A stretch of 64,000 nucleotides of DNA from an uncultured Lysobacter sp. GTDB lineage: Bacteria > Pseudomonadota > Gammaproteobacteria > Xanthomonadales > Xanthomonadaceae. A program made the position numbers and the translations under genes. Positions 9,221 through 29,012 of this stretch are shown one piece after another; within the stretch, counting starts at the first letter, position 1; each line of letters starts with the position of its first letter. Location: contig CAMLID010000001.1 in the NCBI GenBank assembly GCA_946480055.1, positions 124,001 to 188,000 on the forward strand. Direction: 5' to 3'. Below the pieces are notes generated by a model. The model ran no database searches. It saw only the letters and a program-made list of their open reading frames with translations, and was not told the DNA's origin.

Positions 9221-9249
9221 GGGGTGGCTCCGGGTAGGATGGGGCGCTC

Positions 9250-9271: not shown

Positions 9272-9393
9272 TAGATCTCATGCCTCGCGCCGTCAACGAC
9301 GCCGATGCGGACGCAGCGTTGCATCGATGGATGCGTTGACCGCGCCCCTGCCCCGAGCCATATTGGACCGAACGTTCCAGTCGACTTGCCGCC

Positions 9394-10154: not shown

Positions 10155-11861
10155 ATGCCGAACACCGCGGACATGCTGTGGTTCAAGACCCGTTTCGCAG
10201 CGCGCGTCGTGCCTGCACTGGCCGGCACCCCGCTCACCCTGGACCTGATCACCGCGCTGGCCTGCCAGGAAACCGGCGAGGTTTGGCCGGTGCTGCGGCG
10301 CAAGTCGATGAGCGAGGAGCGCATCCTGGCCCTGTGCGTGGGCGACACGCTCGATTCCAACGCCGGCCGCAGCGCCTTCCCCAAGACCAAGACCGAACTG
10401 GTGGCCGCCTCGCGCGGCGACGAGATGTTCGCGATCGCGCGCAAGGCCCTGGTCGACATGGCGGTGCACATCGAGGCCTACCAGGGCGCGGCATCGCGGC
10501 CGAACAAGTTCTGCCACGGCTTCGGCATGTTCCAGCGCGACCTGCAGTTCTTCCTCGACGATCCCGACTACTTTCTCGAGCGCCGCTACGAGCGGTTCGA
10601 GCAGACCCTGGCGATGTGCGTGGCCGAACTCAAGCGCGGGCTGCGCAAGCTGCGGCTACAGGATCGCGCATCGCTGACGACGATGGAGCTGGCCTCGGTC
10701 GCGATCGTCTACAACACCGGCGGCTTCCGCCCCGAGCGCGGCCTGCGTCAGGGCCATTTCGACGGCACCCGCTTCTACGGCCAGGCGATCTTCGATTTCA
10801 TCCGCCAGGCCCAGACCGTGCCGACGCCCGACGCGCCGGCGCCACTGCCCACGCCGCTGCCCGGCGAAGCGCCGGTGCCGCCGCCCAGGCCGATCGCCGC
10901 GACCGGCCCGTTCTTCCGCGTCGACACCCGCGTTTCGACCCTGCGCCTACGCCGCGAGCCGCGCATCAGCCGCCCACCCACCGCCAATGTTCAGGCCGAA
11001 CTGCCCGACGGGCATCCGGTGCGCGCGGTGACCGGGCGCGCCGTCAACGGTTTCATGGAAGTCGAGACCAGCCTGTTCGGCGCGTTGCTGCGCGGGTTCT
11101 GCTCGACCGATTTCCTGGTCCGCGACAACGGCATCGTCGACATCCCTATCGTCGAACCCGCGCGCGATCCGCCGCGTACCGGCGTGGTCGCGGTGTTCAT
11201 GCCGCGCCGGCCGGGCCGGGTGACCCGGCGCCGTGACGCGGCCGGCGCGCATTCGCTCAACGAAGACGGCCAGCCCGAACGCTCCGGTTCCACCGCGCCG
11301 GATCTGCGCGACGACCTGGGCGCCATCATCGACTGGCTCGCGGTCGACAAGGCCTCGCACAAACGCTACCAGCCGCACTCGGGCCTGACTTTCTGCAATA
11401 TCTACGCCCACGATTACTGCCATCTGGCCGGCGTCTACCTGCCGCGGGTTTGGTGGAGCTCGCCGGCGATCGAAAAGCTGCGCCGCGGCCAGACGGTCGA
11501 GCCGTTGATCGCCGACACCATCTTCGAGATGCGCGCTAACGACCTGTTCCGCTGGCTGCGCGACTTCGGCCCCGAGTTCGGCTGGCGCCAGGTGAGTACG
11601 CCCACGCGCCTGCAGGAAGAAGCCAACCAGGGCGCGGTCGCGTTGATCGTGGCGCGGCGCAAGATCGAGGGAAAATCCGGCCACATCCTGCCGGTGGTGC
11701 CCGAGACCGAAACCGAGCATGCGCACCGCACCGCCTCCGGCGAGGTCGACAGGCCGCTGCAGAGCCAGGCCGGCGTCAGCAACTTCCGTTACGGCACCAG
11801 CACCGCCAACTGGTGGAAGGACGAGCGCTTCGCCGAAAGCGCGTTCTGGGTCCACGCCTGA
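10155..11861 (+). CDS. Putative multidomain cell-wall hydrolase (lysozyme-like, SH3-like, papain-like)
   Basis: A 568-residue protein with a strong AAGGAGG ribosome site. Residues 1-215 look lysozyme/transglycosylase-like: TALACQETGEVW provides a candidate catalytic Glu, HGFGMFQRD and IVYNTGGF resemble substrate-cleft motifs. A Pro-rich linker (about 220-250) leads to an SH3-like part (about 255-335; FFRVDTRVSTLRLR, ELPDGHPVRAVTGR). Residues 380-568 carry TFCNIYAHDYCHLAGVYLP and NQGAVALIV then SGHILPVVPE, i.e. a Cys and a His spaced as in papain-like NlpC/CHAP amidases. No signal peptide is visible, so release would need a dedicated secretion route or lysis. Peptidoglycan is the inferred substrate. 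Family assignments are by eye. Confidence 0.62.
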   Translation: MPNTADMLWFKTRFAARVVPALAGTPLTLDLITALACQETGEVWPVLRRKSMSEERILALCVGDTLDSNAGRSAFPKTKTELVAASRGDEMFAIARKALVDMAVHIEAYQGAASRPNKFCHGFGMFQRDLQFFLDDPDYFLERRYERFEQTLAMCVAELKRGLRKLRLQDRASLTTMELASVAIVYNTGGFRPERGLRQGHFDGTRFYGQAIFDFIRQAQTVPTPDAPAPLPTPLPGEAPVPPPRPIAATGPFFRVDTRVSTLRLRREPRISRPPTANVQAELPDGHPVRAVTGRAVNGFMEVETSLFGALLRGFCSTDFLVRDNGIVDIPIVEPARDPPRTGVVAVFMPRRPGRVTRRRDAAGAHSLNEDGQPERSGSTAPDLRDDLGAIIDWLAVDKASHKRYQPHSGLTFCNIYAHDYCHLAGVYLPRVWWSSPAIEKLRRGQTVEPLIADTIFEMRANDLFRWLRDFGPEFGWRQVSTPTRLQEEANQGAVALIVARRKIEGKSGHILPVVPETETEHAHRTASGEVDRPLQSQAGVSNFRYGTSTANWWKDERFAESAFWVHA

Positions 11862-11876
11862 TCCTCTCCTCAGGCG

Positions 11877-11906
11877 ACGCAGCGCGGTCGGGGGGCCGCG
11901 CTGCGT
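11877..11906 (+). terminator. Hairpin after cell-wall hydrolase gene
   Basis: ACGCAGCGCGG (11877-11887) pairs with CCGCGCTGCGT (11896-11906) around an 8-base G-rich loop, 16 bases after the stop. There is no T tract, so it may be an RNA-stabilising hairpin or a weak terminator. Confidence 0.5.
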
Positions 11907-12045
11907 AACGGGGCGCATCGCACCCCTCGCCCGTTCGGAGACGGCCGCCGCCCTGTAAACCCCGCAGCGCAACCACGCATCGCATCCAGGGGCGCCGGCA
12001 TCGGCTGCGCCCGTATCATGGCCCCGGCAATGCGTGGAGTATCGA

Positions 12046-13578
12046 ATGAAGGTTTGGATAGTGGCGGCGGCGCTCGTCCTCGCAAGCATCGCCCCGGCAT
12101 TCGCGGTCGAACCGGCCTCGCCGCGGCCCGAACACGGCGTCTGGGTGATCCGCGACGTGACAGTGATCCCCGCCGATAGCGACGAAGTGCTCACCCATCG
12201 CGACGTGCTGATACGCGAGGGGCGGATCGCGGACATCCGCGTGCCGGAAGACGCAAGCCACCCCAGGAACACGCGCTACATCGACGGCCGCGGCAAGTTC
12301 CTGATCCCAGGTCTGGTCGACGCCCACGTCCACATCGCCACCGAAGGCGCGCTGCGCGACAGCAAGAGCCCGTTGCTGTCCGGGCTCGATGCCGGTCCCG
12401 ATCACGTCTACGATCGCCGCGTTCTGCTGAGCTTCCTCAAGGCCGGCGTGACCGGCGCGGCCAACCTCGGCGGCGGCGCAAGCAGCGACCAAGACCTGCT
12501 GTGGCTGCGCGACGAGATCGCCGCCGGCCGCATCGTCGGACCGCGCCTGTACGTAGCCAAGCGCATCAACGGACCGCGTGCGGAAGTCGCCTCGCCGCGC
12601 CCGGTCGAGGTGCCGGCGTCGAAGCCCACGGCCCCGACCACCGCCGCCGACGGCATCGCCGCCGTGCGCGCCGCGCACGAACGCGGCTACGACTTCATCA
12701 AGCCCTACCAGTTCCTCAACCGCGAGACCTATCAGGCCGTCGTCGACGAGGCCAGGCGCCTGGGCATGGTCACTTCCGGCCATCTTCCGGAACTGGGTTG
12801 CGGCGTCTGCGCCGACCGCACCTTCGCATTCGACCATCCGCTGGACAACATCGCCCACAGCGAGGAACTCGGACGCTACGGCCGCGAATCCAATCTGGCC
12901 CCGCGCGATATCGATGCGCTCGCCGATCTGGTCGCGCGCAACAAGGTCGGCGTCACCCCGACCCTGATCACGCTCAAGCAGATCGTCCACATGTACGTGA
13001 ATCGCGAAGTGCCCGCGACGCCCGGCGACTGGGGCGCGCTGGTCGACCCGGTCACCCGCCTGGACTGGGCGCCTGCGGGCAACAACTACTTGAGCCAGAA
13101 ATTCCGCAGCCAGGACGGCGCCGACACCTTCTCGGCCGGCTACGACTTCTCGCGCCTGCTCACCCGCGAACTGTGGAAACGCGGCGTGCCGCTGACCGTG
13201 GGCACCGATGCGCCGATGCCCGGCCTGGCGTTCGGCGTGTCGGTGCATCAGGAAATGATCGAACTGCGCGAGGTCGGTCTGTCGCCGCTGGAAGTGCTGC
13301 GCGCGGCGACGATCAATGCGCATCGTTTGTTCGACCGCGAGGGCGGCAGCGGCGCGATACGCGTGGGCGAACGCGCCGACCTGGTGCTGCTGGACGCCGA
13401 CCCGCTGGCCGATATCGGCAACGTCGCACGCATCAACGGCGTGTTCGCGCAAGGGCGCTGGCTGCCGGCGGCCAGGATCGACGCGATGCTGGCGGAGTCG
13501 GACGGCGCGATGCGCGAACTTTCGCAGCGCATCCAGGCGCGTCAGGCCGAAGCGGGCCGGGCCAAACCGGCGCCGTGA
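12046..13578 (+). CDS. Exported amidohydrolase family metalloenzyme
   Basis: A 510-residue periplasmic or secreted member of the metal-dependent amidohydrolase superfamily (imidazolonepropionase/prolidase-like branch). A Sec signal (VWIVAAALVLASIAPAFA) ends near residue 20. The small beta-sandwich (WVIRDVTVIPADSDEV, DVLIREGRIADI) is followed by metal ligands DAHVHI (Asp92, His94, His96), the SGHLPE histidine and TDAPMPG aspartate; the C-terminal ADLVLLDADPLADIGN strand closes the sandwich. It could hydrolyse cyclic amides or Xaa-Pro dipeptides; the substrate is not determined. ATG at 12046 is preceded by GGAG at a 6-base distance; a GTG at 12034 is an alternative. Confidence 0.85.
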   Translation: MKVWIVAAALVLASIAPAFAVEPASPRPEHGVWVIRDVTVIPADSDEVLTHRDVLIREGRIADIRVPEDASHPRNTRYIDGRGKFLIPGLVDAHVHIATEGALRDSKSPLLSGLDAGPDHVYDRRVLLSFLKAGVTGAANLGGGASSDQDLLWLRDEIAAGRIVGPRLYVAKRINGPRAEVASPRPVEVPASKPTAPTTAADGIAAVRAAHERGYDFIKPYQFLNRETYQAVVDEARRLGMVTSGHLPELGCGVCADRTFAFDHPLDNIAHSEELGRYGRESNLAPRDIDALADLVARNKVGVTPTLITLKQIVHMYVNREVPATPGDWGALVDPVTRLDWAPAGNNYLSQKFRSQDGADTFSAGYDFSRLLTRELWKRGVPLTVGTDAPMPGLAFGVSVHQEMIELREVGLSPLEVLRAATINAHRLFDREGGSGAIRVGERADLVLLDADPLADIGNVARINGVFAQGRWLPAARIDAMLAESDGAMRELSQRIQARQAEAGRAKPAP

Positions 13579-13579
13579 C

Positions 13580-14956
13580 TCAGGCGCGTGTGCGCATCCG
13601 CCGCGCGATCTCGCTGATCGCGGCGATGACCAGGGTCAGCGCGATCGTCGACAGCAGCTGCATGCGCGGCCCCTCGGTGAGCAGGGCCAGCGCGATCACG
13701 CTGCCCAGCATCGCCAGGCCCAGCCAAGTCAGATAAGGGAAGGCGTTCATCCGGAACGGCAGCGGCGTGCCCTCGCGGTCGGCGCGACGGCGCAGGATCA
13801 ACTGCGACAGCAGCGACATGCCCCACACCAGCAGGCAGGTCGAACCGACCACGTTCAGCAGCGCCGGCAGCACGCGCTCCGGATACCACAGCTCCAGCAG
13901 CGCGGCGAAGAAGCCGAACGCGACGCTGGCCAGCACCGCGGCCACCGGCACCTGGCGGCGGTCGACGCCGGCCAGGAAGCGCGGCGCCTCGCGGCGTTCG
14001 GCCAGCGAATAGATCATGCGCGAAGCGCCGTAAAGGTTGGCGTTGAGCGCAGACAGCAGCGCGATCACCGCGACCAGGGTGATCGCAGCGGCCGCGCCCG
14101 GGATATTGGCGACCTGCAGCACCGCGGCGAACGGCGACTTCAGCGACTCGCTCGTCCACGGCACCACCGCGATGATGACGCTGACCGAGCCGATGTAGAA
14201 CACCAGGATGCGCCAGGCCACGGTGCGGATCGCGCGGGTAATGCTGCGCGCCGGGTCCTGGGTCTCGGCCGCCGCGACCGCGACGATCTCAGTGCCGCCG
14301 AAGGCGAAGATCACCACCAGCAGCGCCGCGCCCACGCCGGCCCAGCCCTTGGGCGCGAAGCCGCCGTGATCGACGAAGTTGGACAGGCCCGGCGAGGTCA
14401 CGTTCGGCAACCAGCCCAGCAACAGAGCCGCACCGATCGCGATGAAGGCGAGGATCGCGACGACCTTGAGGATCGCGAACCAGAATTCGAAGGCGCCGAA
14501 ATTCTTGACGCCCAGCAGGTTGATCGCGGTGAACACGGCCATGAACAGCAGCGACATCATCGCCACCGGCAAGCCCGGCCAGACCGTCGCCAGCAGACCG
14601 GCCGCGCCCACCGACTCGGCCGCGATCACGATCACCAGCTGCGCCCACCACAACCAGCCCAGGGTCGCGCCGGCGGTGGCGCCCATGGCGTCGGCGGCGT
14701 AGACCGAGAACGCGCCGCTGGCCGGCTTGGCCGCAGCCATCTCGCCCAGCGCGCGCATCACGATGATCACCAGCACGCCGGCGATCAGGTAGGACAGCAG
14801 CACCGCCGGTCCCGCCGCCTGCACGCCCACGCCCGAGCCCAGGAACAGCCCGGCGCCGATCGCGCTGCCCAAGCCCATCATCACCAACTGACGCGGTTTC
14901 ATCGCGTAGCCGAGCTGGGTTTCGTCGGGGCGGGCGGTCTCGGTCTGGGAGTTCAT
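13580..14956 (-). CDS. Amino acid permease (APC superfamily)
   Basis: A 458-residue inner-membrane amino acid:proton symporter of the AAT family (AroP/ProY/GabP-like). Signature near the N-terminus: LVMMGLGSAIGAGLFLGSG, the unwound TM1 that binds the substrate carboxylate, followed by LIAGVLVIIVMRALGEMAA. About 12 hydrophobic segments are present, and FAFGGTEIVAVAAAE is the TM6 motif. N-terminal residues before KPRQL are cytosolic. Convergent with the amidohydrolase gene with one base between the two stops. The amino acid specificity is not evident. Confidence 0.9.
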   Translation of the reverse strand: MNSQTETARPDETQLGYAMKPRQLVMMGLGSAIGAGLFLGSGVGVQAAGPAVLLSYLIAGVLVIIVMRALGEMAAAKPASGAFSVYAADAMGATAGATLGWLWWAQLVIVIAAESVGAAGLLATVWPGLPVAMMSLLFMAVFTAINLLGVKNFGAFEFWFAILKVVAILAFIAIGAALLLGWLPNVTSPGLSNFVDHGGFAPKGWAGVGAALLVVIFAFGGTEIVAVAAAETQDPARSITRAIRTVAWRILVFYIGSVSVIIAVVPWTSESLKSPFAAVLQVANIPGAAAAITLVAVIALLSALNANLYGASRMIYSLAERREAPRFLAGVDRRQVPVAAVLASVAFGFFAALLELWYPERVLPALLNVVGSTCLLVWGMSLLSQLILRRRADREGTPLPFRMNAFPYLTWLGLAMLGSVIALALLTEGPRMQLLSTIALTLVIAAISEIARRMRTRA

Positions 14957-15102: not shown

Positions 15103-16041
15103 TTACTTCGCAGCCGGCACCTGCTCCGCCCAGCTCTTCAAGTCGCTGGTACCGTCCAGGAACGGCAGCGCCGTCGTGGCCAGGCGCGGCGCGGCGAAGA
15201 TCTCGTAGTGGGTCAGGTCGGGCAGGATCGCCAGACGGTTCTTGGACAGGGTCTCGCGGCCCCAGCCGGCGTCCTGCTGGCCGCCGCCGAGCAGCTGGTA
15301 GAACTTGATCACGTGCTCGGGGCGGTACATGTCGCCGTCACCGTAGACCAGCATCACCGGCATCTGCAGCTGCTTGACCTCGGCCGACCAGTCGTAGTGA
15401 CCGCGCATGAAATCGCCGAGGGTGTCGAGCAGACGCGGGAACTCGCCGATGTTCGGCGCTACCGCCGCGTAGTTCAGGTACATCGGCGTGTCCTTCATCA
15501 TCGGCGCGGCGGCGCCGGTCAGGCCTTTCTGCTGGGCGCGGATGCCGGGGTAGTAGCCGTCGTCGGAATAGGCGCCCGACACCAGCACCAGCCGGCGCAC
15601 GCTCGCCGGCCGCTGGATCGCCATGCGCAGCGCCACGCAGCTGCCCAGCGAGTAACCCAGCACGTCGACCTGCTGGTGGCCGAGCTTGGCGACCAGCGCG
15701 GCCATGTCGTCGCCGCCGGACTGGCAGCTGAAAGGGCGCTGCCCCAGCGGGGTGCGGCCATGACCGTGCAGATCAACCGCGATCACCTGTCGGTGCTCGC
15801 TCAGTTTCGGCATCAGCGGGGCGAACATTTCGATCGAGCCCAGGCCGCCGTGCAGCAACAGCAGGGGTTCGCCTTTGCCGCGGATCTCGTAGTAGTAGTC
15901 GACGCCATCGATGATCTGGCGGCCCTTGATGACCTCCGCGCTGATGTTGACGATGGGCTGCGCTTCGGCCGCCGGCGCGGCGATGGGCAGCAGGACGGCG
16001 ACAGCGGTATAGGCCCACAGGGCAAGCGTTGCGAACTTCAT
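15103..16041 (-). CDS. Exported alpha/beta hydrolase (serine nucleophile)
   Basis: A 312-residue hydrolase with a signal peptide (FATLALWAYTAVAVLLPIAAPAAEA) and a canonical fold: LLLHGGLGSIEMFAPL oxyanion loop, VDLHGHGRTPL, nucleophile elbow LGYSLGSCVALRMA with Ser, YGDGDMYRP acid and DLTHYEIF His. It therefore differs from the Asp-type enzymes elsewhere in the window. Esterase, lipase or lactonase activity in the periplasm is plausible. The ATG at 16041 is preceded by CGGAGACC. Located 146 bases from the permease start on the same strand. Confidence 0.82.
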   Translation of the reverse strand: MKFATLALWAYTAVAVLLPIAAPAAEAQPIVNISAEVIKGRQIIDGVDYYYEIRGKGEPLLLLHGGLGSIEMFAPLMPKLSEHRQVIAVDLHGHGRTPLGQRPFSCQSGGDDMAALVAKLGHQQVDVLGYSLGSCVALRMAIQRPASVRRLVLVSGAYSDDGYYPGIRAQQKGLTGAAAPMMKDTPMYLNYAAVAPNIGEFPRLLDTLGDFMRGHYDWSAEVKQLQMPVMLVYGDGDMYRPEHVIKFYQLLGGGQQDAGWGRETLSKNRLAILPDLTHYEIFAAPRLATTALPFLDGTSDLKSWAEQVPAAK

Positions 16042-16164
16042 GATCGGTCTCCGATGAGGTCCAGCGTCGGATTGACGCCGGAATCCAGGTCTCACTGGAG
16101 CGACGAACCAAGCAGGCACGAATCGACATGCGGCCGGCGATTTTTTTGCCCCGCGCCGGCGCGC

Positions 16165-17196: not shown

Positions 17197-20100
17197 ATGA
17201 ACGATGCGCGTACAGTTTCGTTGCCCCTGTCCGTGGCCCAGCTCGGTCTCTGGTTCAGCCAGAAGCTCGCCGGGCCGGGCGCCAACTTCAATCTCGCCGA
17301 AGCCATCGAGATCCGCGGCTGGATCGACCCGGGACTGTTCCTGCGCGCCTTGCGCCAGGTGTCGTCGGAAGCCGAGGCCGTGCGCCTGCGCCTGATCGAT
17401 GTCGACGGCGTTCCGCGTCAACGCATCGTCGGCACCCGCATCGACGACTTCCCCTACTTCGACTTCAGCGACGACAGCGATCCGGCCGCCGTGGCCGAAC
17501 GCTGGATGGCCGCCGAACTGTCGGCCCAGGTCGAGCTGGACGACAGCCCGATGTGGGCCTGCGCCTTGCTCAAGCTCGGCCACGAACACCACGTCTGGTA
17601 CCACCGCGCCCATCACATCGTCATCGACGGCTACGCCGGCGGCCTGATCGCGCGACGCGTGGCCGAGATCTACTCGGCCTACGCGCTCAACCGCCAGCCC
17701 GGGGCCAGCGGCTTCCATTCGCTGGCCTCGCTGCTCGAAGCCGAAGACGCCTACCGCGCCTCGGACCGCTGCCGCCGCGATCGCGAGTACTGGCATGAGC
17801 AACTCGCCGAACTGCCCGAGCCGGTGACGCTGTCGCGCCGCCGCTCGCGCGGCGACGGCGGGCTCCGGCGCAGCAGCGGCTTTCTGTCCGGCGACAGCAC
17901 GCGCCGGCTGCGCGCATTGGGCAAGGAGCGCTCGGCGAGCCTGCCGCAGGTGCTGATCGCGCTGGTCGCCGCCTACTACTTCCGCGCCACCGGCGCTGCG
18001 GACCTGGTCCTGGGCATGCCGGTCAGCGGCCGGGTCAACCATCAATTGCGGCATACGCCGGGCATGCTCGCCAACGCGGTGCTGCTGCGCCTGCGGATGA
18101 CACCGACCCAGACCATGAGCGAGCTGATCGCCCAGGTCGCACGTGTGGTCGCCCAGGCGCTGCGCCATCAGCGTTACCGCTACGAAGACCTGCGGCGCGA
18201 ACTCGGCCTGGTCGGCCAGGGCCAGCGCGTGGCCTGGCTTGGGGTGAACATCGAGCCCTTCGACTACGCGCTCGACTTCGGCGGCGCAACCGGTGTGCCG
18301 CGCAATCTGTCCAACGGCTCGGCCGAAGACCTGACCGTGTTCGTCTACGACCGCGGCGACGACGGCGGCCTGCGTTTCGACTTCGACGCCAACCCGGCGC
18401 TGTACGACGCGGCCGAACTGGACGAGCACCGCCGGCGCATGCAGCGCCTGATCGATGCCGCGCTCGCCGATCCCGACGCGACGCTGTGTGGCATCGACGT
18501 GCTCGGCGAAGAAGAACGCGAACGCCTGCTGCGGCGCTGGAACGACACCGCCGCGCCGGTGCCCGCGGCGACGCTGCCGGCGCTGTTCGCCGAACAGGCC
18601 TGGCGCAGTCCCGAGGCCACCGCGGTGCGCTACGGCGAGCGTCGCCTGAGTTATCGCGACCTGCATGTGCGCTGCCTGCACGAAGCCAACCGGCTGATCG
18701 AACGCGGGGTCGCCCCGGGCCAGATTGTGGCGATGGCGCTGCCGCGCGACGAGAACCTGCTGGTGGCGATGCTGGCGATCGGCTTCGCCGGTGCGGCTTA
18801 TCTGCCGCTCGATCCCGACACGCCCGACGAACGTCTGGCGAGCATGCTGGCCGACGCCAAGCCGGCACTGTTGCTGACCTCGCAGGTACTCACGCCACGG
18901 CTCGCGCGCCTGGGCACGCCGCTGGCGACACTGGCGCCGGCCGATGTCGTCGCCGCGCTGGCGACGCCACGCGCGTTCGACCTGTCCACGCCCGAGGCCA
19001 CCGCGTACATCCTCTACACCTCCGGCTCCACCGGCCGGCCCAAGGGCGTCGAGGTCAGCCATCGCAACCTGGGCAACCTGCTCGAAGCGATGCGCCGCCA
19101 GCTTGCGCCGATCGCCAGCGACCGCTTCCTCGCTGTCACCACGGTGGTCTTCGACGTTGCCGCTCTGGAACTGTTCCTACCTCTGATAGTCGGCGCGCAG
19201 ACCGTAATCGCCGGCGGCGACATCGTACGCGACCCGCCGCGCTTGGCGGCCTTGATCCGCGAGCACGGCATCGGCTACATGCAAGCGACGCCGTCGCTAT
19301 GGCGCATGCTGCTGTCCAGCGGCGAGACCGACCTGTCCGGCGTGCACGCGCTGGCCGCCGGCGAGGCCCTGTCCGGCGAACTGGCGCAGCGGCTGGCGCG
19401 GCTGGCGGACAAGGTCAGCAATCTCTACGGCCCGACCGAAACCACCGTCTACTCCACCGCGATCGAGTTGTCGGACGCGGACCTGGCCGCGCCGCCGATC
19501 GGGCGCCCGATTCTCAACACCCGCCTCTACGTGCTCGATGCCAGCGGCAGTTCGGTTCCGACCGGCTGCCCGGGCGAGCTGTACATCGCCGGCGCCGGCG
19601 TCGCCAAGGGCTATCTGCATCGGCCGGAGTTGACCGCGGAACGCTTCCTGCTCGACCCCTTCGATCGCGACGGCGGCCGCATGTACCGCACCGGCGACGT
19701 GGTGCGTTGGCGCGAGGACGGCGTGCTCGAGTACCTGGGCCGCAGCGATCAGCAGATCAAGATCCGCGGCATCCGGGTCGAACCGGGCGAAATCGAGAGC
19801 CGGCTGCTGGAACACGCCGATATCGCGGACGCGGCGGTGATCGCCGATGCCGCCGGCGGCGAAGGCGGCGTACGTCTGAACGCCTATCTGGTGCCCGTCG
19901 CCGGCACCGCGCTGCAGGTCGATGCGGTGCGCCGCCATCTCGCCGAGCGCCTGCCCGACTACATGATTCCCAGCGCCCTGGTGCCGGTGCCCGCGCTCCC
20001 GCTGACGCCCACGGGCAAGCTCGACCGCAAGGCCCTGCCCGCGCCCGAACGCGGCGAGCGCAGCGGCTTCGTCGCACCGCGCACTCCGGTGGAGCGCAAG

Positions 20101-21201
20101 CTCGCGGCGATCTGGGCGGAACTGCTGGGCCTGCCGCGCATCGGCGTCCACGACAATTTCTTCGAGCTCGGCGGCGATTCGCTGATCGCCGCGCAGCTGA
20201 TCGCGCGCCTGCCCGATCGCTTCGGCAAGCGCCTGCCGGTGGCCAGCCTGTTCGAAGCCTCGACCGTCGCCGGCTTGGCCGCACTGCTGGAGCGCACCGA
20301 CCACGAGCACGGCGATCCGCTGGGCGCGGTGCTGTCCTTGCGCAAGCCGACGTCCTCCGCCGCGGCGTCGCCGCGTCCGTTGTTCTGCATCCATCCGATC
20401 GCCGGGCTCAGCCTCGGGTATTCCAGCCTGCTCCGCCACCTCGACCCTGCGATACCGGTGTACGGCCTGCAGTCGCGTGGGCTGCGCGGCATGGAGCCGC
20501 TGCCGGCCAGCATCGACGAAATCGCCGCCGACTATCTCGCCCAGATCCGCCGCATCCAGCCCGAGGGGCCGTATCGCCTGCTCGGACGTTCGCTGGGCGG
20601 ACTGATCGGCCACGCCATCGCCGCGCAGTTGAACGAGCAGGGCGAGCAGGTGGAGCTGCTGGCGATGATCGACAGCTATCTGTTCTCGACGCCGACGCAG
20701 ACGCACGACCCGGCCGACGAAGTGCGCGCGGCGCTGGGGTTCCTCGGTATCGCCGCCGATCGCGGCCCGACGCCACGCAGCCTGGACGAACTAGCCCCAG
20801 CCCTGCTCGCCCACAACGCGCGTTCGATGCCGCTGCTGCGCGAAATCGCGCGCGACCACCCACGCTTCGTCGAACATGCGTTCGCGGTGATGCGCAACAA
20901 CCTGACGCTCGCGCGCCGGCATGCGCCGCGCAAGCTCGACCTGGACCTGGTGTATTTCCACGCTACCCAACGCCTGGGCGACCCGTCGGGGCTGATCGAG
21001 CACGACCCGGAGACCTGGCGGTCCTACGTCGGCGGCCGCTTCGAACTGCATGCGCTGGACTGCCATCACGAGAGCGTGCTCGACAACGCGCCCGCCGCGC
21101 GCATCGGCCAGGTGCTGCGCCAACGCCTGGACCTGTTGCAACGACCGACCGTGGACACGCTCGACGACGACAGGCAGGCGTGGTCGGTGATCCATGCCTG
21201 A
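17197..21201 (+). CDS. Single-module nonribosomal peptide synthetase, C-A-PCP-TE
   Basis: A 1334-residue EntF-like NRPS. Condensation domain (residues 8-440) with intact HHIVIDG (His139, His140, Asp144, Gly145); adenylation domain (about 455-945) with YTSGSTGRPKG near 606, NLYGPTETT near 741, YRTGD near 830 and PTGKLDRKAL near 936; carrier protein with GGDSL, phosphopantetheine Ser995; thioesterase (about 1040-1334) with GRSLGG (Ser1132) and a final His in DCHHES (1289-1293). By-eye GrsA alignment gives the specificity residues D-V-L-Q-L-A-L-V-Y-K, closest to the known glycine code DILQLGLIWK. A condensation domain at the N-terminus with no upstream module fits acylation of one amino acid by a free acyl donor. 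The stop overlaps the next gene by 8 bases. No MbtH, PPTase or transporter gene is adjacent. Confidence 0.93.
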   Translation: MNDARTVSLPLSVAQLGLWFSQKLAGPGANFNLAEAIEIRGWIDPGLFLRALRQVSSEAEAVRLRLIDVDGVPRQRIVGTRIDDFPYFDFSDDSDPAAVAERWMAAELSAQVELDDSPMWACALLKLGHEHHVWYHRAHHIVIDGYAGGLIARRVAEIYSAYALNRQPGASGFHSLASLLEAEDAYRASDRCRRDREYWHEQLAELPEPVTLSRRRSRGDGGLRRSSGFLSGDSTRRLRALGKERSASLPQVLIALVAAYYFRATGAADLVLGMPVSGRVNHQLRHTPGMLANAVLLRLRMTPTQTMSELIAQVARVVAQALRHQRYRYEDLRRELGLVGQGQRVAWLGVNIEPFDYALDFGGATGVPRNLSNGSAEDLTVFVYDRGDDGGLRFDFDANPALYDAAELDEHRRRMQRLIDAALADPDATLCGIDVLGEEERERLLRRWNDTAAPVPAATLPALFAEQAWRSPEATAVRYGERRLSYRDLHVRCLHEANRLIERGVAPGQIVAMALPRDENLLVAMLAIGFAGAAYLPLDPDTPDERLASMLADAKPALLLTSQVLTPRLARLGTPLATLAPADVVAALATPRAFDLSTPEATAYILYTSGSTGRPKGVEVSHRNLGNLLEAMRRQLAPIASDRFLAVTTVVFDVAALELFLPLIVGAQTVIAGGDIVRDPPRLAALIREHGIGYMQATPSLWRMLLSSGETDLSGVHALAAGEALSGELAQRLARLADKVSNLYGPTETTVYSTAIELSDADLAAPPIGRPILNTRLYVLDASGSSVPTGCPGELYIAGAGVAKGYLHRPELTAERFLLDPFDRDGGRMYRTGDVVRWREDGVLEYLGRSDQQIKIRGIRVEPGEIESRLLEHADIADAAVIADAAGGEGGVRLNAYLVPVAGTALQVDAVRRHLAERLPDYMIPSALVPVPALPLTPTGKLDRKALPAPERGERSGFVAPRTPVERKLAAIWAELLGLPRIGVHDNFFELGGDSLIAAQLIARLPDRFGKRLPVASLFEASTVAGLAALLERTDHEHGDPLGAVLSLRKPTSSAAASPRPLFCIHPIAGLSLGYSSLLRHLDPAIPVYGLQSRGLRGMEPLPASIDEIAADYLAQIRRIQPEGPYRLLGRSLGGLIGHAIAAQLNEQGEQVELLAMIDSYLFSTPTQTHDPADEVRAALGFLGIAADRGPTPRSLDELAPALLAHNARSMPLLREIARDHPRFVEHAFAVMRNNLTLARRHAPRKLDLDLVYFHATQRLGDPSGLIEHDPETWRSYVGGRFELHALDCHHESVLDNAPAARIGQVLRQRLDLLQRPTVDTLDDDRQAWSVIHA

Positions 21202-22525
21202 GCCGACCATGCCCACCGCCCGGCCCATCGTCATCTTCACCATCGGCACGCTCGGCGACGTGCTGCCCTGCGTCGCGCTGGGTCAGGGCCTGCAGCGCGC
21301 GGGCTATCCCGTGCGTATCGCCACCAGCGCCAACTTCGCCACGCTGGTGCGCGACGCCGGCCTCGAGCACTACCCGCTGAGCGCGGATTTCCAGGCCATG
21401 CTCGACGCCGACCGCAGCATCGCCGACCGCGGCCTCAATCTGTACGCGATGGCGCGCACCTTCCGTGAGCGCTACGCGCACTGGGCCCAGGACTGGGCTG
21501 CGGAAGGCCTGGCCGCCAGCGACGGCGCGGGCCTGCTGATCGGCGTCAGCAACGCCATTCAGCTGGCCAAGGCTCTGTCCGAAGCACGCGGTCTGCCGTT
21601 CGCGATCGCGCGGCTGCAGCCGCTGACGCCGTCGCGGATCCTGCCGCCGATGGTGATGGCCGGAACCCGCGAGCGTCTGCCGGGCGCGCTCAGCCTGGGC
21701 TTGTACAAGCTGATCCATCTGCTGGTGTGGTACGTGATGAAGCCGGCGATCAACGACCTGGTGCGGCCGCAACTGGGTCTGCCGCGCTATCCCTGGCACG
21801 GCCCCCATCTGGGCCGCAATGCCCAGCAGGAAAAGACCCTCAACGGCTACAGCGCAGCCCTGCTGCCGCGGCCCGCGGACTGGCCGGAGAGTTCGCAGAT
21901 CACCGGTTACTGGTTCGCCGAACAGAGCTCGTGGCAGCCCAGCGAGGACCTGCGCCGCTTCCTCACCGGCGGCGACAAGCCGGTCTATGTCGGCTTCGGC
22001 AGCATGGTCAACGCCGACGCGGTCGCTTTCACCCGCACCGTGCTCGACGCGGTCGAACGCAGCAGCCTGCGTGCCGTACTCGCCACCGGTTGGGGCGGCC
22101 TGGACGGCGCCGACGGCGCGCGCGACGCACGCACTTACTTCCTGCGCCACGCGCCGCACGACGCCCTGTTCCCGCACATGTGCGCGGCCGTGCACCACGG
22201 CGGCGCCGGTACCACCGCGGCCGCGGTGCGCGCCGGCATCCCCTCGGTGGTGGTGCCGTTCTATGGCGATCAGCCGTTCTGGGCGCGTTGCCTGCAACGC
22301 CGCGGCGTCGCGCCGCCGGCGCTGCAACGCAAGACCCTGGACGCCGCGCAATTGGCCGAGGCGATCCTCGCCACCCAGCAGCCGCCGATGCTGCAGGCGG
22401 CCGCACAACTGGGCCGCACAGTGCGCGCCGAAGACGGCATCGGCACGGCGTTGGCGCAGTTGCGCGCCTGGGGCCTGCTCGATCCGATCGCACCCGAAGC
22501 GCGGCGGCTGCGGAGCGTCGCATGA
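21194..22525 (+). CDS. GT1-family glycosyltransferase (sterol-glucosyltransferase/RhlB-like)
   Basis: A 443-residue GT-B fold UDP/TDP-sugar-dependent glycosyltransferase. The N-terminal acceptor domain starts IFTIGTLGDVLPCVALGQGL; the C-terminal donor domain has VYVGFGSM and VHHGGAGTTAAAVRAG (from residue 334) then VPFYGDQPFWA, matching Atg26/UGT80-like and macrolide glycosyltransferases, with RhlB as a more distant relative. No signal peptide; likely peripheral at the inner membrane because LGLYKLIHLLVWYVM is hydrophobic. Its ATG lies inside the NRPS stop region and its own stop overlaps the next ATG (ATGA), so it is translationally coupled. In context it should attach a sugar to the NRPS product. 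Confidence 0.9.
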   Translation: MPEPTMPTARPIVIFTIGTLGDVLPCVALGQGLQRAGYPVRIATSANFATLVRDAGLEHYPLSADFQAMLDADRSIADRGLNLYAMARTFRERYAHWAQDWAAEGLAASDGAGLLIGVSNAIQLAKALSEARGLPFAIARLQPLTPSRILPPMVMAGTRERLPGALSLGLYKLIHLLVWYVMKPAINDLVRPQLGLPRYPWHGPHLGRNAQQEKTLNGYSAALLPRPADWPESSQITGYWFAEQSSWQPSEDLRRFLTGGDKPVYVGFGSMVNADAVAFTRTVLDAVERSSLRAVLATGWGGLDGADGARDARTYFLRHAPHDALFPHMCAAVHHGGAGTTAAAVRAGIPSVVVPFYGDQPFWARCLQRRGVAPPALQRKTLDAAQLAEAILATQQPPMLQAAAQLGRTVRAEDGIGTALAQLRAWGLLDPIAPEARRLRSVA

Positions 22526-23868
22526 GAACCGCCTCCGCACGTCCGCTGACCCTGTTCGAACGCGCCCTGTACGGCGACGGCAGCCTGCCGGGCAACGTCA
22601 TCGCCACCGCTTGCGTCGAAGGCCGCATCGATCAGACCGCGCTGCAGCGAGCACTGACCCAGATGCAGGCGCGTCACCCGCTGCTGCGCTGCCTGATCGT
22701 CGAACGCGACGGTAGGCCGTGGTTCGAAATGCAGCAGCATCCCCCGCCGATCGCCCTACGCATCCTCGGCCGAAACGGCGACGACGGCTGGATGACGACC
22801 TCGGCGCGCGAGCTGCAACGGCGCTTCGACGGCCGCAGCGAACCGCTGGCGCGGCTGACCTGGCTGCGCGGCGAGGACCATAGCGAGCTGGTCCTGGTCT
22901 GCCATCACGCGATCTGCGACGGGCGCTCGCTGATGACCTTGCTCGGCGAGCTGCTGCGCTGGTCCGACGGCTCCGAACACGCGATCGAACCCCGCTATCT
23001 GCTGGCGAGCTTCATCGATCTGCTGCCCGACTCGGTGCGCAGCGACCGCGGCTTGCAACGCAGCATCCGCTGGCGCGCGGCTGCGTTGGCCCTGGCGCTC
23101 CGGCTCCTGGTCAGATCCAAGCCGGCGCAGCGCTACGGCGAGGTCTATCGCGAACTGTGGACCCTGGACGAGGCCGCGAGCCGACGCTTGTCCGAGCACT
23201 GCCGCCACGAGCGCGTCAGCGCCTACGTCGCCGTCAGCCTGGCCTTCATCGCTGCGTTCCGCGCGGTCTGCGGCCCGCGCTGGATTCAGCGCTACACCGC
23301 GCCGGTGGACATGCGCAGCCTGCTGCCCGCACTCGCCGACGACGACTTGTTCGGGATCGCGCCGACGATCGCGCTGCAGCCGGGCAAGGCGCGTTCGGGC
23401 GAATTCTCGCCGACCGAGTTCTGGGAGCAGGCGCGATCGCTGCAGGCCGACCTGCAAGCCAAAGTCGAAGTCCTGGCGCCCAAGGTCTACCGCAACTTCC
23501 TCGGCCTGGAACGCCTGCATGGCGTGTTCGAACGCATGGCCTCCTACGGCCGTTCGCGGCGCGCCGGGCGCGAGCTGACGCTCAGCAATCTGGGCCGCCT
23601 GTCCCTGGCGCAGGACTATCACGGCTACCGCCTGCGCGCGGTGCGCGGCGTCTCCGGCCTGGTCGGCGCGACGCCGGCGCATCTGGTGGTGATGTCGCGC
23701 TACGCCGGCCGCTACGACTTCGTACTCGCCTCCGACGAAGACTCGTTGCCGCGCGCGCAAGCGCAGCGGATCCGCGAACACGCGATGGCGCTGCTGGAGG
23801 CGATGACCGCGTCGCAGACGCAGGCCGCCCAGCACGCGCCCTCGGCCGCATCGGTACGCGCCTTATGA
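22522..23868 (+). CDS. Stand-alone condensation-type acyltransferase 1 (PapA-like)
   Basis: A 448-residue member of the CoA-dependent acyltransferase/condensation superfamily with no A or carrier domain. The catalytic motif VCHHAICDG (His128, His129, Asp133, Gly134) is intact; LTLFERALYGDG at the N-terminus and the NLGRL-type strand RELTLSNLGRLSL (solvent-channel region) are typical of PapA5-like acyltransferases. It should transfer an acyl group from CoA or a carrier protein to a hydroxyl or amine, perhaps a sugar hydroxyl of the glycosylated product. The start overlaps the GT1 stop as ATGA and the stop overlaps the GT2 start as ATGA. The alternative is the true lipid-initiating condensation enzyme. 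Confidence 0.86.
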   Translation: MRTASARPLTLFERALYGDGSLPGNVIATACVEGRIDQTALQRALTQMQARHPLLRCLIVERDGRPWFEMQQHPPPIALRILGRNGDDGWMTTSARELQRRFDGRSEPLARLTWLRGEDHSELVLVCHHAICDGRSLMTLLGELLRWSDGSEHAIEPRYLLASFIDLLPDSVRSDRGLQRSIRWRAAALALALRLLVRSKPAQRYGEVYRELWTLDEAASRRLSEHCRHERVSAYVAVSLAFIAAFRAVCGPRWIQRYTAPVDMRSLLPALADDDLFGIAPTIALQPGKARSGEFSPTEFWEQARSLQADLQAKVEVLAPKVYRNFLGLERLHGVFERMASYGRSRRAGRELTLSNLGRLSLAQDYHGYRLRAVRGVSGLVGATPAHLVVMSRYAGRYDFVLASDEDSLPRAQAQRIREHAMALLEAMTASQTQAAQHAPSAASVRAL

Positions 23869-24845
23869 CTCGCTACGGCCTGATCTTCGTCCTGTACCAG
23901 CCGGACCCGGAGTTCGTCGACAACTTGCGCCGTGCGCGCGCGATCTGCGCCGACCTTGTCGCGATCGACAACTCGCCCGAACCGGATGCGCCTCTGCACC
24001 GGGCCCTGCACGACGAACACATCGACGTGCTGGTCAACCGCAACCGTGGCGGCCTGGCCGGCGCCTACAACCGCGGCGCCGAAGTGCTGCTGGCGCGCGG
24101 CTGCGAGGTGATCTTCCTGCTCGACCAGGACTCCAAGATCGAGGCCTCGTTCTTCGAACAGATGATGCAGGCCTGCGCCACGCTGGGTACCGACAGCTTC
24201 GTGCTCGGGCCGCGCGTGTACGAGATCAACCTGCGCAAATGCATGCCGACCTTCCCGCCGGGCCGGCGCTTCCCGCGGCCGGTGCGCATGACCGAGCGCA
24301 GTCAAGGTCTGTTCCCGACCCTATTCGTGATTTCCTCCGGTTCGGCGATCTCGGCCTCCGCCTATCGCAAGCTCGGCGCATTCCGTGAGGACTACTTCAT
24401 CGAGTACATCGATATCGAGTACGGCCTGCGCGCCTCCAGCCAGGGCGTGCCGGTACTGATGAACGCAGACGTGGTGATGAACCAGACCACCGGCCAGATC
24501 CGCCGCCACGGCAAGCTCTACACCACCCATCACGTCGCCTGGCGACGCTACTACGGCGCGCGCAACGCGGTGCATTGTCTGCGCCTGTACAAGGCCCACT
24601 GGGGCCTGCACTGGCTCAGCGGCGCGCTGGCCCTGCACCAGGGCCTGTGCGTGGCGCTGTTCGAGCCGGACAAGTTACGCAAGCTGACCGCCATCGCCTG
24701 CGGCTACTTCGACGGCCGGCGCGGCAGGCTGGGCACTTTCGAACGCTTGCATCCGCGTATCCACGCTTATTGCTCCGGCGCCGCACGCGGCGCGGCAGCA
24801 GCCGCACCCGCGAGCTCAAGATCGGCGCCGGGAGACGCCTCGTGA
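23865..24845 (+). CDS. GT2-family glycosyltransferase (RhlC/rhamnosyltransferase-like)
   Basis: A 326-residue GT-A fold enzyme. Residues 1-60 give YGLIFVLYQPD and LVAIDNSPEPD; NRNRGGLAGAYNRG (58-71) and FLLDQDSK with the DxD-like Asp87/Asp89 bind nucleotide sugar and metal; FVISSGSAISASAYRKLGAFREDYFIEYIDIEYGLR holds the acceptor and catalytic-base region. This is the RhlC/dTDP-rhamnosyltransferase branch, so a second sugar, possibly rhamnose, is a reasonable guess. C-terminal hydrophobic patches suggest membrane association. Starts inside the preceding stop (ATGA) and ends inside the next start (GTGA). Confidence 0.9.
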   Translation: MTRYGLIFVLYQPDPEFVDNLRRARAICADLVAIDNSPEPDAPLHRALHDEHIDVLVNRNRGGLAGAYNRGAEVLLARGCEVIFLLDQDSKIEASFFEQMMQACATLGTDSFVLGPRVYEINLRKCMPTFPPGRRFPRPVRMTERSQGLFPTLFVISSGSAISASAYRKLGAFREDYFIEYIDIEYGLRASSQGVPVLMNADVVMNQTTGQIRRHGKLYTTHHVAWRRYYGARNAVHCLRLYKAHWGLHWLSGALALHQGLCVALFEPDKLRKLTAIACGYFDGRRGRLGTFERLHPRIHAYCSGAARGAAAAAPASSRSAPGDAS

Positions 24846-26143
24846 GCCGCAAGCTGTCCACGATCGAACACCTGATCGACGGCAGCCTCGCCTATGCGGT
24901 CCGGCTCGAAGGCGAGATCGATGAGACGCGCCTGCGCGAGGCGCTGGCGCGCGTGCAGCGCAAGCATCCGGCCTTGCGCGCCACCCTGCAGGCGCAACGT
25001 GGCGGCCTGCACTACGTGGAAGACAGCGCCGGGCCCATCCCGCTGCGCGTGCTCGATCGGCATGGCGACGACGATTGCCGACGTGAATCCGTGAACGAAG
25101 CGGAGACCCCGTTCGCGCACGGCCAGCCGCAGCTGCGTCTGGTCTGGCTACGCGGCGCGGGCGCCAGCGATCTGCTGTTCGTCGCCTCGCACCGCATCTG
25201 CGACGGTATGAGCCTGCTGATTCTGGTGCGGGAAACGCTGCTGGCTCTGTACGACGACGAACCGCTACGCCCCTACGCGGCGCTCAGCGCCACCGACATC
25301 GTCGGCGACTACTGCCCCGAACATCCGCGGCGCCGGCGCTGGACCGCGCACCTGATCGGGCTGCTGCTGCGGGTGCTGCCGCCGCTGCCGGCCCCGCGCA
25401 ACCGCGAACATCACCTGGAATGGAGTGCCGGCCTGGCTCTGTCGACCGCGTTGCGGCAGCGTTGCAAGCGTGAGGGTGTGTCGGTGCATGCGGCATTGGT
25501 GGTAGCGCTGGACAGCGCCCTGCTGAGCGCGCTGGGCCGCGAGCGGCTGCCGGCCTGGATCGAAAGTCCGATGGACGGCCGCCGCGGCCGTCTGCCGGCG
25601 TTGGCCGACGACATGCTGTTCTACGGTGGCGGCGGCCTCAAGTTCCGCACCGGCGAAGCCGCCGCTGCCGATTTCTGGGAACGCGCCCGCACAGTTCATC
25701 GCTCGATGCAGGGCCAGATCGAACGCGAGACCCGCGACATCCCAGGCCGCTACCACTTCTGCGAACTGATCCGCCCCCCTGCGCCGGCGCAGCTGCACGC
25801 GCTGATCCGATTCGGCAATGCGCTCGGGCTCAACGGCAGTTGGAACCGTTTCACCCTGTCCAACCTGGGCAATCTCGACCTGCTCGGCGACGACGCTCCG
25901 TTCCGCCTGCGCGATCTGCGCGTCTATGTGCACTCGCGTTCGGTCCGTGCCCTGGGCTTGATCGTCTATGCCCTGCATGGCCAGATCCGCTTCTACTGCA
26001 TGGGCGACGAGCGCTGTATCACTCAGGACCGCGCCCAGGCCCTGCGCGACGCGCTGACGGCGATGCTGGACGCTCAGGTCGGCCGGTCCCAACCCGTACC
26101 GTCGGCCGAAGTCGGCGCGGCCGGCGCGGCGCTGGCCGGCTAG
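24842..26143 (+). CDS. Stand-alone condensation-type acyltransferase 2 (PapA-like)
   Basis: A 433-residue relative of the acyltransferase three genes upstream, read from a GTG at 24842 that overlaps the GT2 stop as GTGA. VSRKLSTIEHLIDG is a PapA-like N-terminus. The active-site motif reads ASHRICDG: the first His of HHxxxDG is replaced by Ser116, but the catalytic second His117, Asp121 and Gly122 remain, so activity is possible. NRFTLSNLGNLDLL is the late structural motif. Two such enzymes plus the NRPS condensation domain suggest three acyl or amide transfers on one product. It is the last gene of the operon; a GST gene begins 89 bases later. Confidence 0.85.
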   Translation: MSRKLSTIEHLIDGSLAYAVRLEGEIDETRLREALARVQRKHPALRATLQAQRGGLHYVEDSAGPIPLRVLDRHGDDDCRRESVNEAETPFAHGQPQLRLVWLRGAGASDLLFVASHRICDGMSLLILVRETLLALYDDEPLRPYAALSATDIVGDYCPEHPRRRRWTAHLIGLLLRVLPPLPAPRNREHHLEWSAGLALSTALRQRCKREGVSVHAALVVALDSALLSALGRERLPAWIESPMDGRRGRLPALADDMLFYGGGGLKFRTGEAAAADFWERARTVHRSMQGQIERETRDIPGRYHFCELIRPPAPAQLHALIRFGNALGLNGSWNRFTLSNLGNLDLLGDDAPFRLRDLRVYVHSRSVRALGLIVYALHGQIRFYCMGDERCITQDRAQALRDALTAMLDAQVGRSQPVPSAEVGAAGAALAG

Positions 26144-27876: not shown

Positions 27877-27984
27877 TTCCGGTGCGCGGGCGGATCGCCG
27901 AACGCTAAAGATTCCGACAGCGGCCGCACCGCCCCGATGGTCTCCTGATGACGCCCGGACGACGGGTCAGAATCGGAGAACCTC

Positions 27985-28122
27985 ATGAACGAAAACACCT
28001 GCGCCGCTTGCGACTGCGAGCTGGACGACCAGGCCATCGCGGTCAGCGTCGGCGGCCATACCGTCGAAGTCTGCTGCGAAGAATGCGCGCAGAAGCTGCG
28101 CGAAGCGGACGTGCGGCTATGA
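27985..28122 (+). CDS. Tiny Cys-rich (TRASH-like) putative metal-binding protein
   Basis: A 45-codon gene with a GGAGAAC ribosome site before the ATG. The product MNENTCAACDCELDDQAI continues to VEVCCEECAQKLRE: CxxC plus C and CC..C clusters on two sides of a GGHTV turn, the arrangement of TRASH/YHS-like or zinc-ribbon metal-binding peptides. Its stop overlaps the following hydrolase ATG (ATGA at 28119-28122), a strong sign that it is translated. It may deliver or sense a metal for the coupled enzymes; this is inference. It was probably missed by length cutoffs. Confidence 0.72.
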   Translation: MNENTCAACDCELDDQAIAVSVGGHTVEVCCEECAQKLREADVRL

Positions 28123-29012
28123 ACGGCGAGACCTACTTCGCCGCGCGCCGCTCGGTCGCCACACCCTCGGGCCGGATCAGCTACGTCGAACAGGGCCAGG
28201 GCCCGGTCGCGCTGTTCGTTCACGGCGTGTTGCTCAACGGCTATCTGTGGCGCCATCAGCTCGCGGAACTGGGCGACAGCCGACATTGCATCGCGGTCGA
28301 CCTGCTCGCGCACGGCTACACCGAGGCCGGCGACGGCCAGGACGTGTCGGTCACCGCCAACGCGCACATGCTGGCGCAGTTCCTCGATGCGCTGGGCATC
28401 GACCGCGTCGACCTGGTCGGCAACGACAGCGGCGGCGGCGTTTGCCAGATCTTCGCCGCGCTTTACCCGCAGCGCATCCGCAGCCTGGCGCTGAGCAATT
28501 GCGACGCCCACGACAACTGGCCGCCGGAGGCTTTCAAGCCCTTCGTCGCAATGGTCGCGGCGGGCGGACTGGGCGATACGCTGCGGGCCATGCTGGCCGA
28601 CAAGGCGGTGTTCCGCACCGCGTTGGCACCGGCCTACGAGCGACCCGAACAAATCGCGGACGCGACCATCGACACCTACCTGCGACCGCTGTTGGATCCG
28701 GCCCGACGTCTGGGCGAACTGGAACGCTTCGTCAATGCCTTCGATTGCCGCCACACCCTGGCGATCGAGGACGGACTGCGCCGCCTGCAGGCACCGACCC
28801 TGATCGCCTGGGGCACCGACGATATCTACTTCCCGCTGGCCTGGTCGGTCTGGCTGCAGCAGACCATCCCCGGCACCGTGCGACGGGTCGAGTTCGATGG
28901 CGCGCGCATCTTCTTCCCCGAAGAGCGCTGGCAGGACTTCAATCGCGAACTGCGCGCGCATTGGCAGACGCACTCCGTCGAAACCGCGGACGCGCAGGCG
29001 GCCACCGCATGA
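28119..29012 (+). CDS. Alpha/beta hydrolase with Asp nucleophile and no visible catalytic His
   Basis: A 297-residue cytosolic hydrolase-fold protein of the haloalkane dehalogenase-like branch. HGVLLNGYLWRHQL (oxyanion), DLLAHGYTEAG, elbow VGNDSGGGVCQIF with Asp as likely nucleophile and WGTDDIYFPL acid are all visible. At the place of the catalytic His the sequence is FDGARIFFPEERW, where active relatives usually have a His before FFPEE or HFPHEE, so the last triad member seems missing. It may be non-hydrolytic, use a different residue, or bind a ligand. ATGA overlaps join it to genes on both sides. Confidence 0.8.
   Translation: MNGETYFAARRSVATPSGRISYVEQGQGPVALFVHGVLLNGYLWRHQLAELGDSRHCIAVDLLAHGYTEAGDGQDVSVTANAHMLAQFLDALGIDRVDLVGNDSGGGVCQIFAALYPQRIRSLALSNCDAHDNWPPEAFKPFVAMVAAGGLGDTLRAMLADKAVFRTALAPAYERPEQIADATIDTYLRPLLDPARRLGELERFVNAFDCRHTLAIEDGLRRLQAPTLIAWGTDDIYFPLAWSVWLQQTIPGTVRRVEFDGARIFFPEERWQDFNRELRAHWQTHSVETADAQAATA

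Follow-up and report, generated by a model that had tools for sequence, protein, structure and literature searches.

A five-gene nonribosomal peptide synthetase and glycosyltransferase operon of Lysobacter that probably makes a glycosylated lipo-amino acid

A window of 64,000 nucleotides from an uncultured Lysobacter sp. (assembly GCA_946480055.1, contig CAMLID010000001.1, positions 124,001 to 188,000) carries an operon of five genes, all on the plus strand and each an intact reading frame, which encode a nonribosomal peptide synthetase (NRPS), a glycosyltransferase (GT1), a free condensation-fold enzyme (C1), a second glycosyltransferase (GT2) and a second free condensation-fold enzyme (C2). 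This operon probably makes an elaborated glycosylated lipo-amino acid, probably an envelope lipid or biosurfactant. Its most likely product is an N-(3-hydroxyacyl) amino acid that bears two sugars, of which the second may be rhamnose, and is acylated by C1 and C2. The original prediction, a lipo-amino acid that carries one or two sugars and additional acyl groups, stands as the best reading, supported by the starter-type condensation (C) domain and glycine-like adenylation (A) domain of the NRPS, the UDP-glycosyltransferase (UGT)-type GT1, GT2 and the condensation-fold enzymes. The operon family suggests that Lysobacter makes a lipid not yet described and that soil Acidobacteria are producers as well.

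Operon structure and the NRPS-GT1 core

The NRPS gene (P0001, 17197..21201) encodes a single module of 1334 amino acid residues with C, A, carrier (PCP) and thioesterase (TE) domains. It is followed by the genes for GT1 (P0002, 21194..22525), which matched the Pfam families Glyco_transf_28/UDPGT; C1 (P0003, 22522..23868), with the motif HHAICDG; GT2 (P0004, 23865..24845), a GT2-fold enzyme of the rhamnosyltransferase family that matched PF00535 and TIGR01556; and C2 (P0005, 24842..26143), with the motif SHRICDGM and a GTG start codon. In both C1 and C2, PF00668 matched the N-terminal part. The NRPS start codon at 17197 has AAGGAG just upstream, and an alternative ATG lies at 17176. Successive genes overlap by 8, 4, 4 and 4 bases; the 4-base overlaps read, in order, ATGA, ATGA and GTGA. 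Thus, the predicted gene content was borne out by Pfam and NCBIfam, and the predicted overlaps proved exact to the base by reading frames and junction check. Among the eight loci whose exact junctions were read (one junction of L011 was not resolved), identical junctions (-8, -4, -4, -4) were found in the Lysobacter loci L001, L002 and L032, and the 8-base NRPS/GT1 overlap in six. The closest locus among the matches listed was that of Lysobacter sp. Root76, whose NRPS was 96% identical. Third-position GC was 0.84-0.89 across the five genes, and their dN/dS values were 0.09-0.20 against L001 and 0.18-0.37 against L002, values that suggest purifying selection on each of them. Given the recurrent overlaps, the uniform third-position GC and the low dN/dS, the arrangement is not due to chance.

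The C domain of the NRPS (17221..18531, plus strand, as are all its domains; residues 9-445 by Pfam) contains the motif HHIVIDG. When compared alone with solved structures, it scored 292 bits with RzmA, 220 with CDA C1, 197 with ObiF1, 156 with EntF and 116 with VibH, while all remaining C-domain comparisons gave at most 110 bits. Because its best matches are the starter C domains of RzmA and CDA, it is, judged by sequence, of the lipid-starter type. The chain-length gate of RzmA, Arg148, aligns with Gly148 of this domain. Shortening of that side chain from Arg to Gly in RzmA lengthened the acyl chains from C2 to C8 or C10 (PMC7804268). Across the 61 core NRPS rows compared, the gate position was Gly in 42, Ala in 15, Thr in two, Ser in one and Val in one.

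The scores of the whole NRPS also bear on whether it is an EntF-like siderophore module with accidental neighbors. Although the EntF and MxcG models gave 737.5 and 777.7 bits, these scores are far below the respective cut-offs of 2400 and 2300, the C domain prefers acyl-starter types, and the neighboring genes are nested with the NRPS across genomes. Such a module is scarcely credible here, and the plain EntF-like siderophore reading was rejected on the model scores and the C-domain type.

The A-domain core (18586..19617, residues 464-807) has the code DVLQLALVYK and is followed by the C-terminal subdomain (19789-20019), the PCP domain (20098..20289, residues 968-1031, GGDSL) and the TE domain (20374..21087, residues 1060-1297, GRSLGG). 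The code DILQxGxxWK was found in 49 of the 61 rows, several of which stem from the same or near-identical genomes; the NRPS of L106 was left out of this table and of the NRPS tree, and its other genes were used in the C-type and GT trees. We take the DILQLGLIWK/DILQxGxxWK pattern to be a glycine code. All members of the window clade (window, L001, L002, L032, L100 and L150) share DVLQLALVYK. Other Lysobacter codes were DIFQLTLVWK (L004, L152, L153, L154 and L155), DILQLGLVWK (L157) and DILQLGFVWK (L011), differences which indicate that the amino-acid pocket has drifted within the genus. The code of the window is glycine-like but altered, and the amino acid may not be glycine. With a glycine-like code, moreover, a side chain whose hydroxyl could form a lactone is probably absent. 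A lipo-amino acid like serrawettin W1, self-esterified or cyclic, which the TE would cyclize or oligomerize and which would merely be glycosylated, would have the same C-A-PCP-TE layout and is nevertheless very unlikely. The lipid of the related system in Alcanivorax borkumensis is also a linear tetra-acyl glycine (PMC10684412).

The NRPS-GT1 core belongs, by its sequence features, to an already described kind. In Xanthomonas albilineans, short one-module NRPS genes with starter-type C domains (XALc_0364/0365 and XALc_1145/1144) overlap a glycosyltransferase gene at their 3' end by 4 or 8 bases; one NRPS has a glycine signature and was assigned Gly, the other a signature given as unknown. ABO_1784-1783-1782 of A. 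borkumensis is the same pair plus a phosphopantetheinyl transferase (PPTase) gene, and the product predicted in silico in 2013 was an amino acid joined to a β-hydroxy acid and a sugar (all PMC3849588). The window shares with this kind a C-A-PCP-TE module of ~1330 residues, the starter-type C domain and the 3'-overlapping glycosyltransferase. The X. albilineans locus L030 was 47% (NRPS) and 53% (GT1) identical to the window, with an NRPS/GT1 overlap of 8 bases. The window differs in adding C1, GT2 and C2, in having no adjacent PPTase gene and in its shifted code. Thus, the claim that no described cluster has this combination fails for the NRPS-GT1 core and holds for C1-GT2-C2, as no description of this extension or of the five-gene form was found in the open-licence PMC papers, so far as their text was available.

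The product of A. borkumensis is Glc-(3-hydroxyacyl)4-Gly. Congeners with alanine or Gly-Gly occur in minor amounts, and an aglycone that is a trimer was also detected (PMC10684412). The enzymes for this lipid were called unknown in 2019 (PMC6669457) and its pathway not elucidated in 2023 (PMC10710537; PMC10684412). Gene content and product together suggest that ABO_1784-1783 makes this glycine-glucolipid. The lipid predicted for the window looks like a decorated cousin of this surfactant from a marine bacterium. No Alcanivorax name appeared among the best 120 of 3599 rows of a search with a Pseudomonadales GT1.

The best solved relative of GT1 was a sterol 3-beta-glucosyltransferase (E 2.7e-44). 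The operon follows the same logic as the rhamnolipid genes RhlA-RhlB-RhlC, with a lipid maker, a UGT-type first transferase and a TIGR01556-type second one. Different from that operon, however, the NRPS takes the place of RhlA and an amide-linked amino acid is predicted, and in our trees GT1 and GT2 fell in clades other than those of the rhl-operon transferases. No RhlA-type abhydrolase was found among the five operon genes, a result that does not extend to the flanking abhydrolase genes at 8219-9271, 15103-16119 and 27948-29012.

Distribution of the five genes

A contig scan for relatives of the operon returned at least 79 loci, and among the closest relatives listed GT1 lies behind the NRPS in Lysobacter, Dyella, Xanthomonas, Acidobacteria, Alphaproteobacteria and Pseudomonadales. 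The core NRPS (>1100 bits) was found in 23 of 299 Xanthomonadales genomes; of the 34 with NRPS matches, 11 had weaker ones (about 670-735 bits) that were not counted as core. C-type genes (P0003 search, E up to 1e-15) were present in 11 of the 299 genomes, all core-bearing. GT2 (P0004 search, E up to 1e-50) was present in 13, which were also all core-bearing and included all 11 C-type genomes. With related genomes counted as independent, the hypergeometric chance of this nesting was 6e-17 and 4e-14, and 6e-5 within the core set. The C-type gene lay beside the NRPS in 10 of the 11 genomes, the exception being G010. A C1 match above 250 bits was found in nine of them, and G549 and G362 had only C2-type genes (L108 and L109, typed by the tree). 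One core NRPS match (G521:C24:500-4027) contained two in-frame stops.

Among 150 genomes of the Granulicella order, the core (>1400 bits) was found in five, all with C-type genes, and weaker matches in two more; three genomes (G649, G688 and G666) had a C-type match without the core. In a class-wide search with C1 over 369 genomes, that of Root76 alone gave a match, a sampling too thin to map the distribution.

Within Lysobacter, the core was present in all 20 genus-level genomes (16/16 in the genus sample, with G1111 partial, plus G001, G003, G572 and G010). In a search with P0005, all 20 also gave a C1-like match (107-148 bits), typed as C1 in the 12 genomes in which the locus was read and untyped in the other eight, and C2 (≥400 bits) was found in eight. 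The five genes were contiguous in G001, G002, G003, G572 and G1116. In G1113, G1114 and G1119, the NRPS was apart from a GT1-C1-GT2-C2 quartet, and the NRPS loci of G1113 and G1119, which were read, had no GT1 alongside. The remaining 12 genomes lacked C2; four of their C1 loci (L105, L147, L148 and L149) showed genes for a major facilitator superfamily (MFS) protein, an Amidase_2 family protein, C1 and GT2, and four of their NRPS loci (L004, L152, L153 and L157) showed NRPS-GT1. Overall, the C1-like gene was away from the NRPS in 15 of the 20 genomes, at least 130 kb off on the same contig in nine and on another contig in six. Thus, the expectation that the five genes are kept together held for part of Lysobacter, Dyella and Acidobacteria, in which the order is conserved, but not for these 15 genomes. 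Because the parts co-occur in all 20 genomes despite the split loci, their joint presence and chromosomal separation argue for a single pathway. A gene that occurs throughout Lysobacter might, however, also be there for unrelated reasons. These natural variants (core; core and GT2; core, GT2 and C2; all five; split loci) allow the role of each enzyme to be tested by comparison of products.

C1, C2 and the proposed product

C1 and C2 formed two separate clades on the C-type tree. C1 homologs retained HH or SH together with CDG. C2 homologs read xHRICDGM, except for L009_17853 (SHSICDGM), L009_19204 and L140_13710 (HRICDAM) and L106_8729 (HRVCDGM). Motifs and predicted structures, with pLDDT of 86.4 (good) for C1 and 77.2 (fair) for C2, showed the two-lobed C-domain fold and the second His and DG of HHxxxDG in both. 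As the catalytic His and Asp are retained, both enzymes are probably active, and the reaction that they catalyze can be proposed from their relatives. The top match of both, by sequence and by fold, was 8s6l, followed by PapA5 and C domains, and the fold matches of C1 included the sugar/alcohol acyltransferases PapA5, WS/DGAT and mannosylerythritol-lipid acyltransferase. C1 was about 24% identical or less to members of the PapA5/AzeD/WS-DGAT/condensation superfamily, from which C1 and C2 differ in sitting in two clades of their own. In protein searches that scored about 8000 candidates each, no functionally characterized name was found among all 26 rows listed for C1 or among the best 120 of 350 rows for C2.

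From the gene content, domains, motifs, predicted folds and nested distribution observed in this study, we infer the following substrates, order of steps and product. The acyl donor of the starter-type C domain would be of medium or long chain length (a 3-hydroxyacyl-CoA or -ACP by analogy), and on the PCP the chain would be joined to glycine or a closely related small amino acid. More 3-hydroxyacyl units might be ester-linked, as in A. borkumensis, before the TE would free the acid. The terminal hydroxyl would then receive from GT1 a first sugar, which is probably glucose. GT2 would attach the second, perhaps L-rhamnose, and C1 and C2 would acylate the sugars.

Alternatively, C1 and/or C2 could lengthen the lipid before glycosylation by esterifying 3-hydroxyacyl units to its free hydroxyl, which is the task of RhlA. 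C-fold enzymes can form esters, which counts for this possibility. So does the A. borkumensis lipid, with its four ester-linked 3-hydroxy acids and the trimer found as aglycone (PMC10684412). However, 12 of the 23 Xanthomonadales core genomes had no C-type match, nor did any of the 15 mapped Pseudomonadales rows, and C-type genes occurred only with GT2 in the Xanthomonadales sample, which is not required of a step before glycosylation. In addition, C1-type genes adjoin RhlA operons. We therefore regard chain lengthening as unlikely, though a serious candidate. Sugar acylation is favored because OafA-type enzymes fill the same slot in Xanthomonas, because the lipid in those Acidobacteria operons (L136 and L138) already comes from RhlA, because the Pseudomonadales rows, with their Alcanivorax-like layout, have no C-type gene, and because the C-fold matches include acyltransferases acting on sugars or alcohols. 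Acylation after the second sugar fits the restriction of C-type genes to GT2-bearing genomes in the Xanthomonadales sample.

That C1 and C2 catalyze another condensation-fold reaction, such as a dehydration, on the lipid or on acyl-PCP is distinctly unlikely. The rank of 8s6l favors it, and the dehydrating condensation domain 7r9x was also among the fold matches of both enzymes. Conversely, the second His and the Asp are retained in both clades, PapA5 and other acyltransferases are close in fold, and the company of GT2 and the OafA-type replacements point towards sugars.

Several observations weigh against an acylated diglycosyl lipo-amino acid. Four positions in the code of the window clade depart from the presumed glycine code. 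The first His of HHxxxDG is missing from C2, and the PapA5 NCBIfam scores of C1 (47.5) and C2 (30.9) are far under the cut-off of 396. Acyl transfer is not certain, because the entry 8s6l bears the title 'AzeD dehydratase', although the name given to its chain is dimycocerosyl transferase. Rhamnose as the second sugar is a guess, since GT2 scored 155.7 bits with TIGR01556 against a cut-off of 200.55, and rmlD was present in 23 of 23 genomes tested, with or without GT2, and hence does not discriminate. Alcanivorax was compared through the gene order given in PMC3849588, not by sequence. Finally, the nesting values carry the independence assumption given above, and the P0003 and P0004 searches of Xanthomonadales scored at most five and seven candidates per genome.

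Locus variants, history and surroundings

Neighbor families were assigned by scanning one protein of each and extending the result to the same protein cluster; gaps in the gene maps are approximate owing to mis-called starts at high GC, and L130-L135 were left out of maps and trees. In Xanthomonas loci, NRPS-GT1 is followed by the OafA-type acyltransferase gene (PF01757; L114:10245-11510 scanned). Sulfotransferase-NRPS-GT1-PPTase was the order in 10 of the 15 mapped Pseudomonadales rows. A sulfotransferase-family gene lay 5' of the core in 13 of them (L119-L127 and relatives; L126 scanned), and a sulfated glycolipid is possible there. Large genes of 1040-1060 residues in L012, L026 and L031 may encode resistance-nodulation-division pumps, as judged only from their size and position.

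In L103, L111 and L042 (L111 scanned), the gene after GT1 belongs to the penicillin-amidase family, and its product could cleave the N-acyl amide. This would fit an amino acid that is a removable handle, with an amino-acid-free glycolipid released by amidase, and A. borkumensis was at one time reported to make a form without glycine (PMC6669457). However, this family was not found among the 40 reading frames scanned in the window, and later work reported no glycine-free congener (PMC10684412), making such a handle highly improbable. The GT1 of Dyella silvatica (L042:9744-10845) matched in two overlapping pieces, either by decay or by sequencing error.

Acidobacteria showed the order NRPS-GT1-C1-C1'-GT2-C2 in L003, L010, L139, L141 and L142. 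L009 and L140 have NRPS-GT1-C1'-GT2 and three genes of the C2 type. Genes for an ATP-binding cassette (ABC) ATPase and an ABC-2 permease then follow in L009, L010, L139 and L142; in L003 and L141 only the gene of the permease family does. In L136 (G649, 7480-13233) and L138 (second G704 locus, 3380-9226), RhlA, GT1-like, GT2-like and MFS genes lie beside a C1-type gene; RhlA of L136 matched 8ik2 with E 6.7e-66, and that of L138 belongs to the same protein family. L137 (G688) was like L136 with no RhlA among its called genes. L143 (G666) and L144 (second G681 locus) had none of these four genes, and their C-type proteins branched outside C1 and C2.

In the NRPS tree, which left out eleven rows that were mostly near-duplicates (L116 and L128 were not), the Acidobacteria fell inside Xanthomonadales, where their sister group was the five-gene clade of Dyella (support 1.00), and the position of the window clade among the Lysobacter sequences was poorly supported (0.58). 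The same Acidobacteria-Dyella pair was found in the GT1 tree. Transfer of operon genes between the phyla is thus likely. In the GT2, C1 and C2 trees (supports not printed), the Acidobacteria again fell among sequences of Xanthomonadales, but beside different sister groups, so that these trees do not show that the operon was transferred once and as a whole. We hold tentatively, as a possibility that falls short of probable, that this is a genus-wide Lysobacter pathway shared horizontally with Dyella and soil Acidobacteria. It would make a new class of diglycosyl lipo-amino acids with an amino acid other than glycine and with sugars acylated by the dedicated C1 ([HS]HxxCDG) and C2 (xHRxCDGM) subfamilies, C1 being common to NRPS-lipid and rhamnolipid-type pathways.

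The prediction that no transporter, MbtH or PPTase gene is adjacent to the operon holds as far as tested. No PPTase was found among the 40 reading frames scanned with Pfam, 15 of which matched no family, and a six-frame scan of the window with an MbtH motif found nothing. ACPS-family genes were present in 10 of 10 related genomes with 2-4 matches each, one below the cut-off, and were not typed as Sfp or AcpS. An amino-acid permease gene lies at 13580-14956 on the opposite strand, and an MFS protein is encoded 20 kb downstream of the operon. RNA families gave no match, the promoter scan found none (0.6 expected) and the terminator scan found one (3.7 expected). Elsewhere in the window, a DNA polymerase III alpha-type gene adjoins an impB/mucB/samB-family gene (37851-42508), a pair that presumably resembles imuB-dnaE2 mutagenesis cassettes, and 58168-59895 encodes a protein with an alpha-lytic-protease prodomain and a weak trypsin match.

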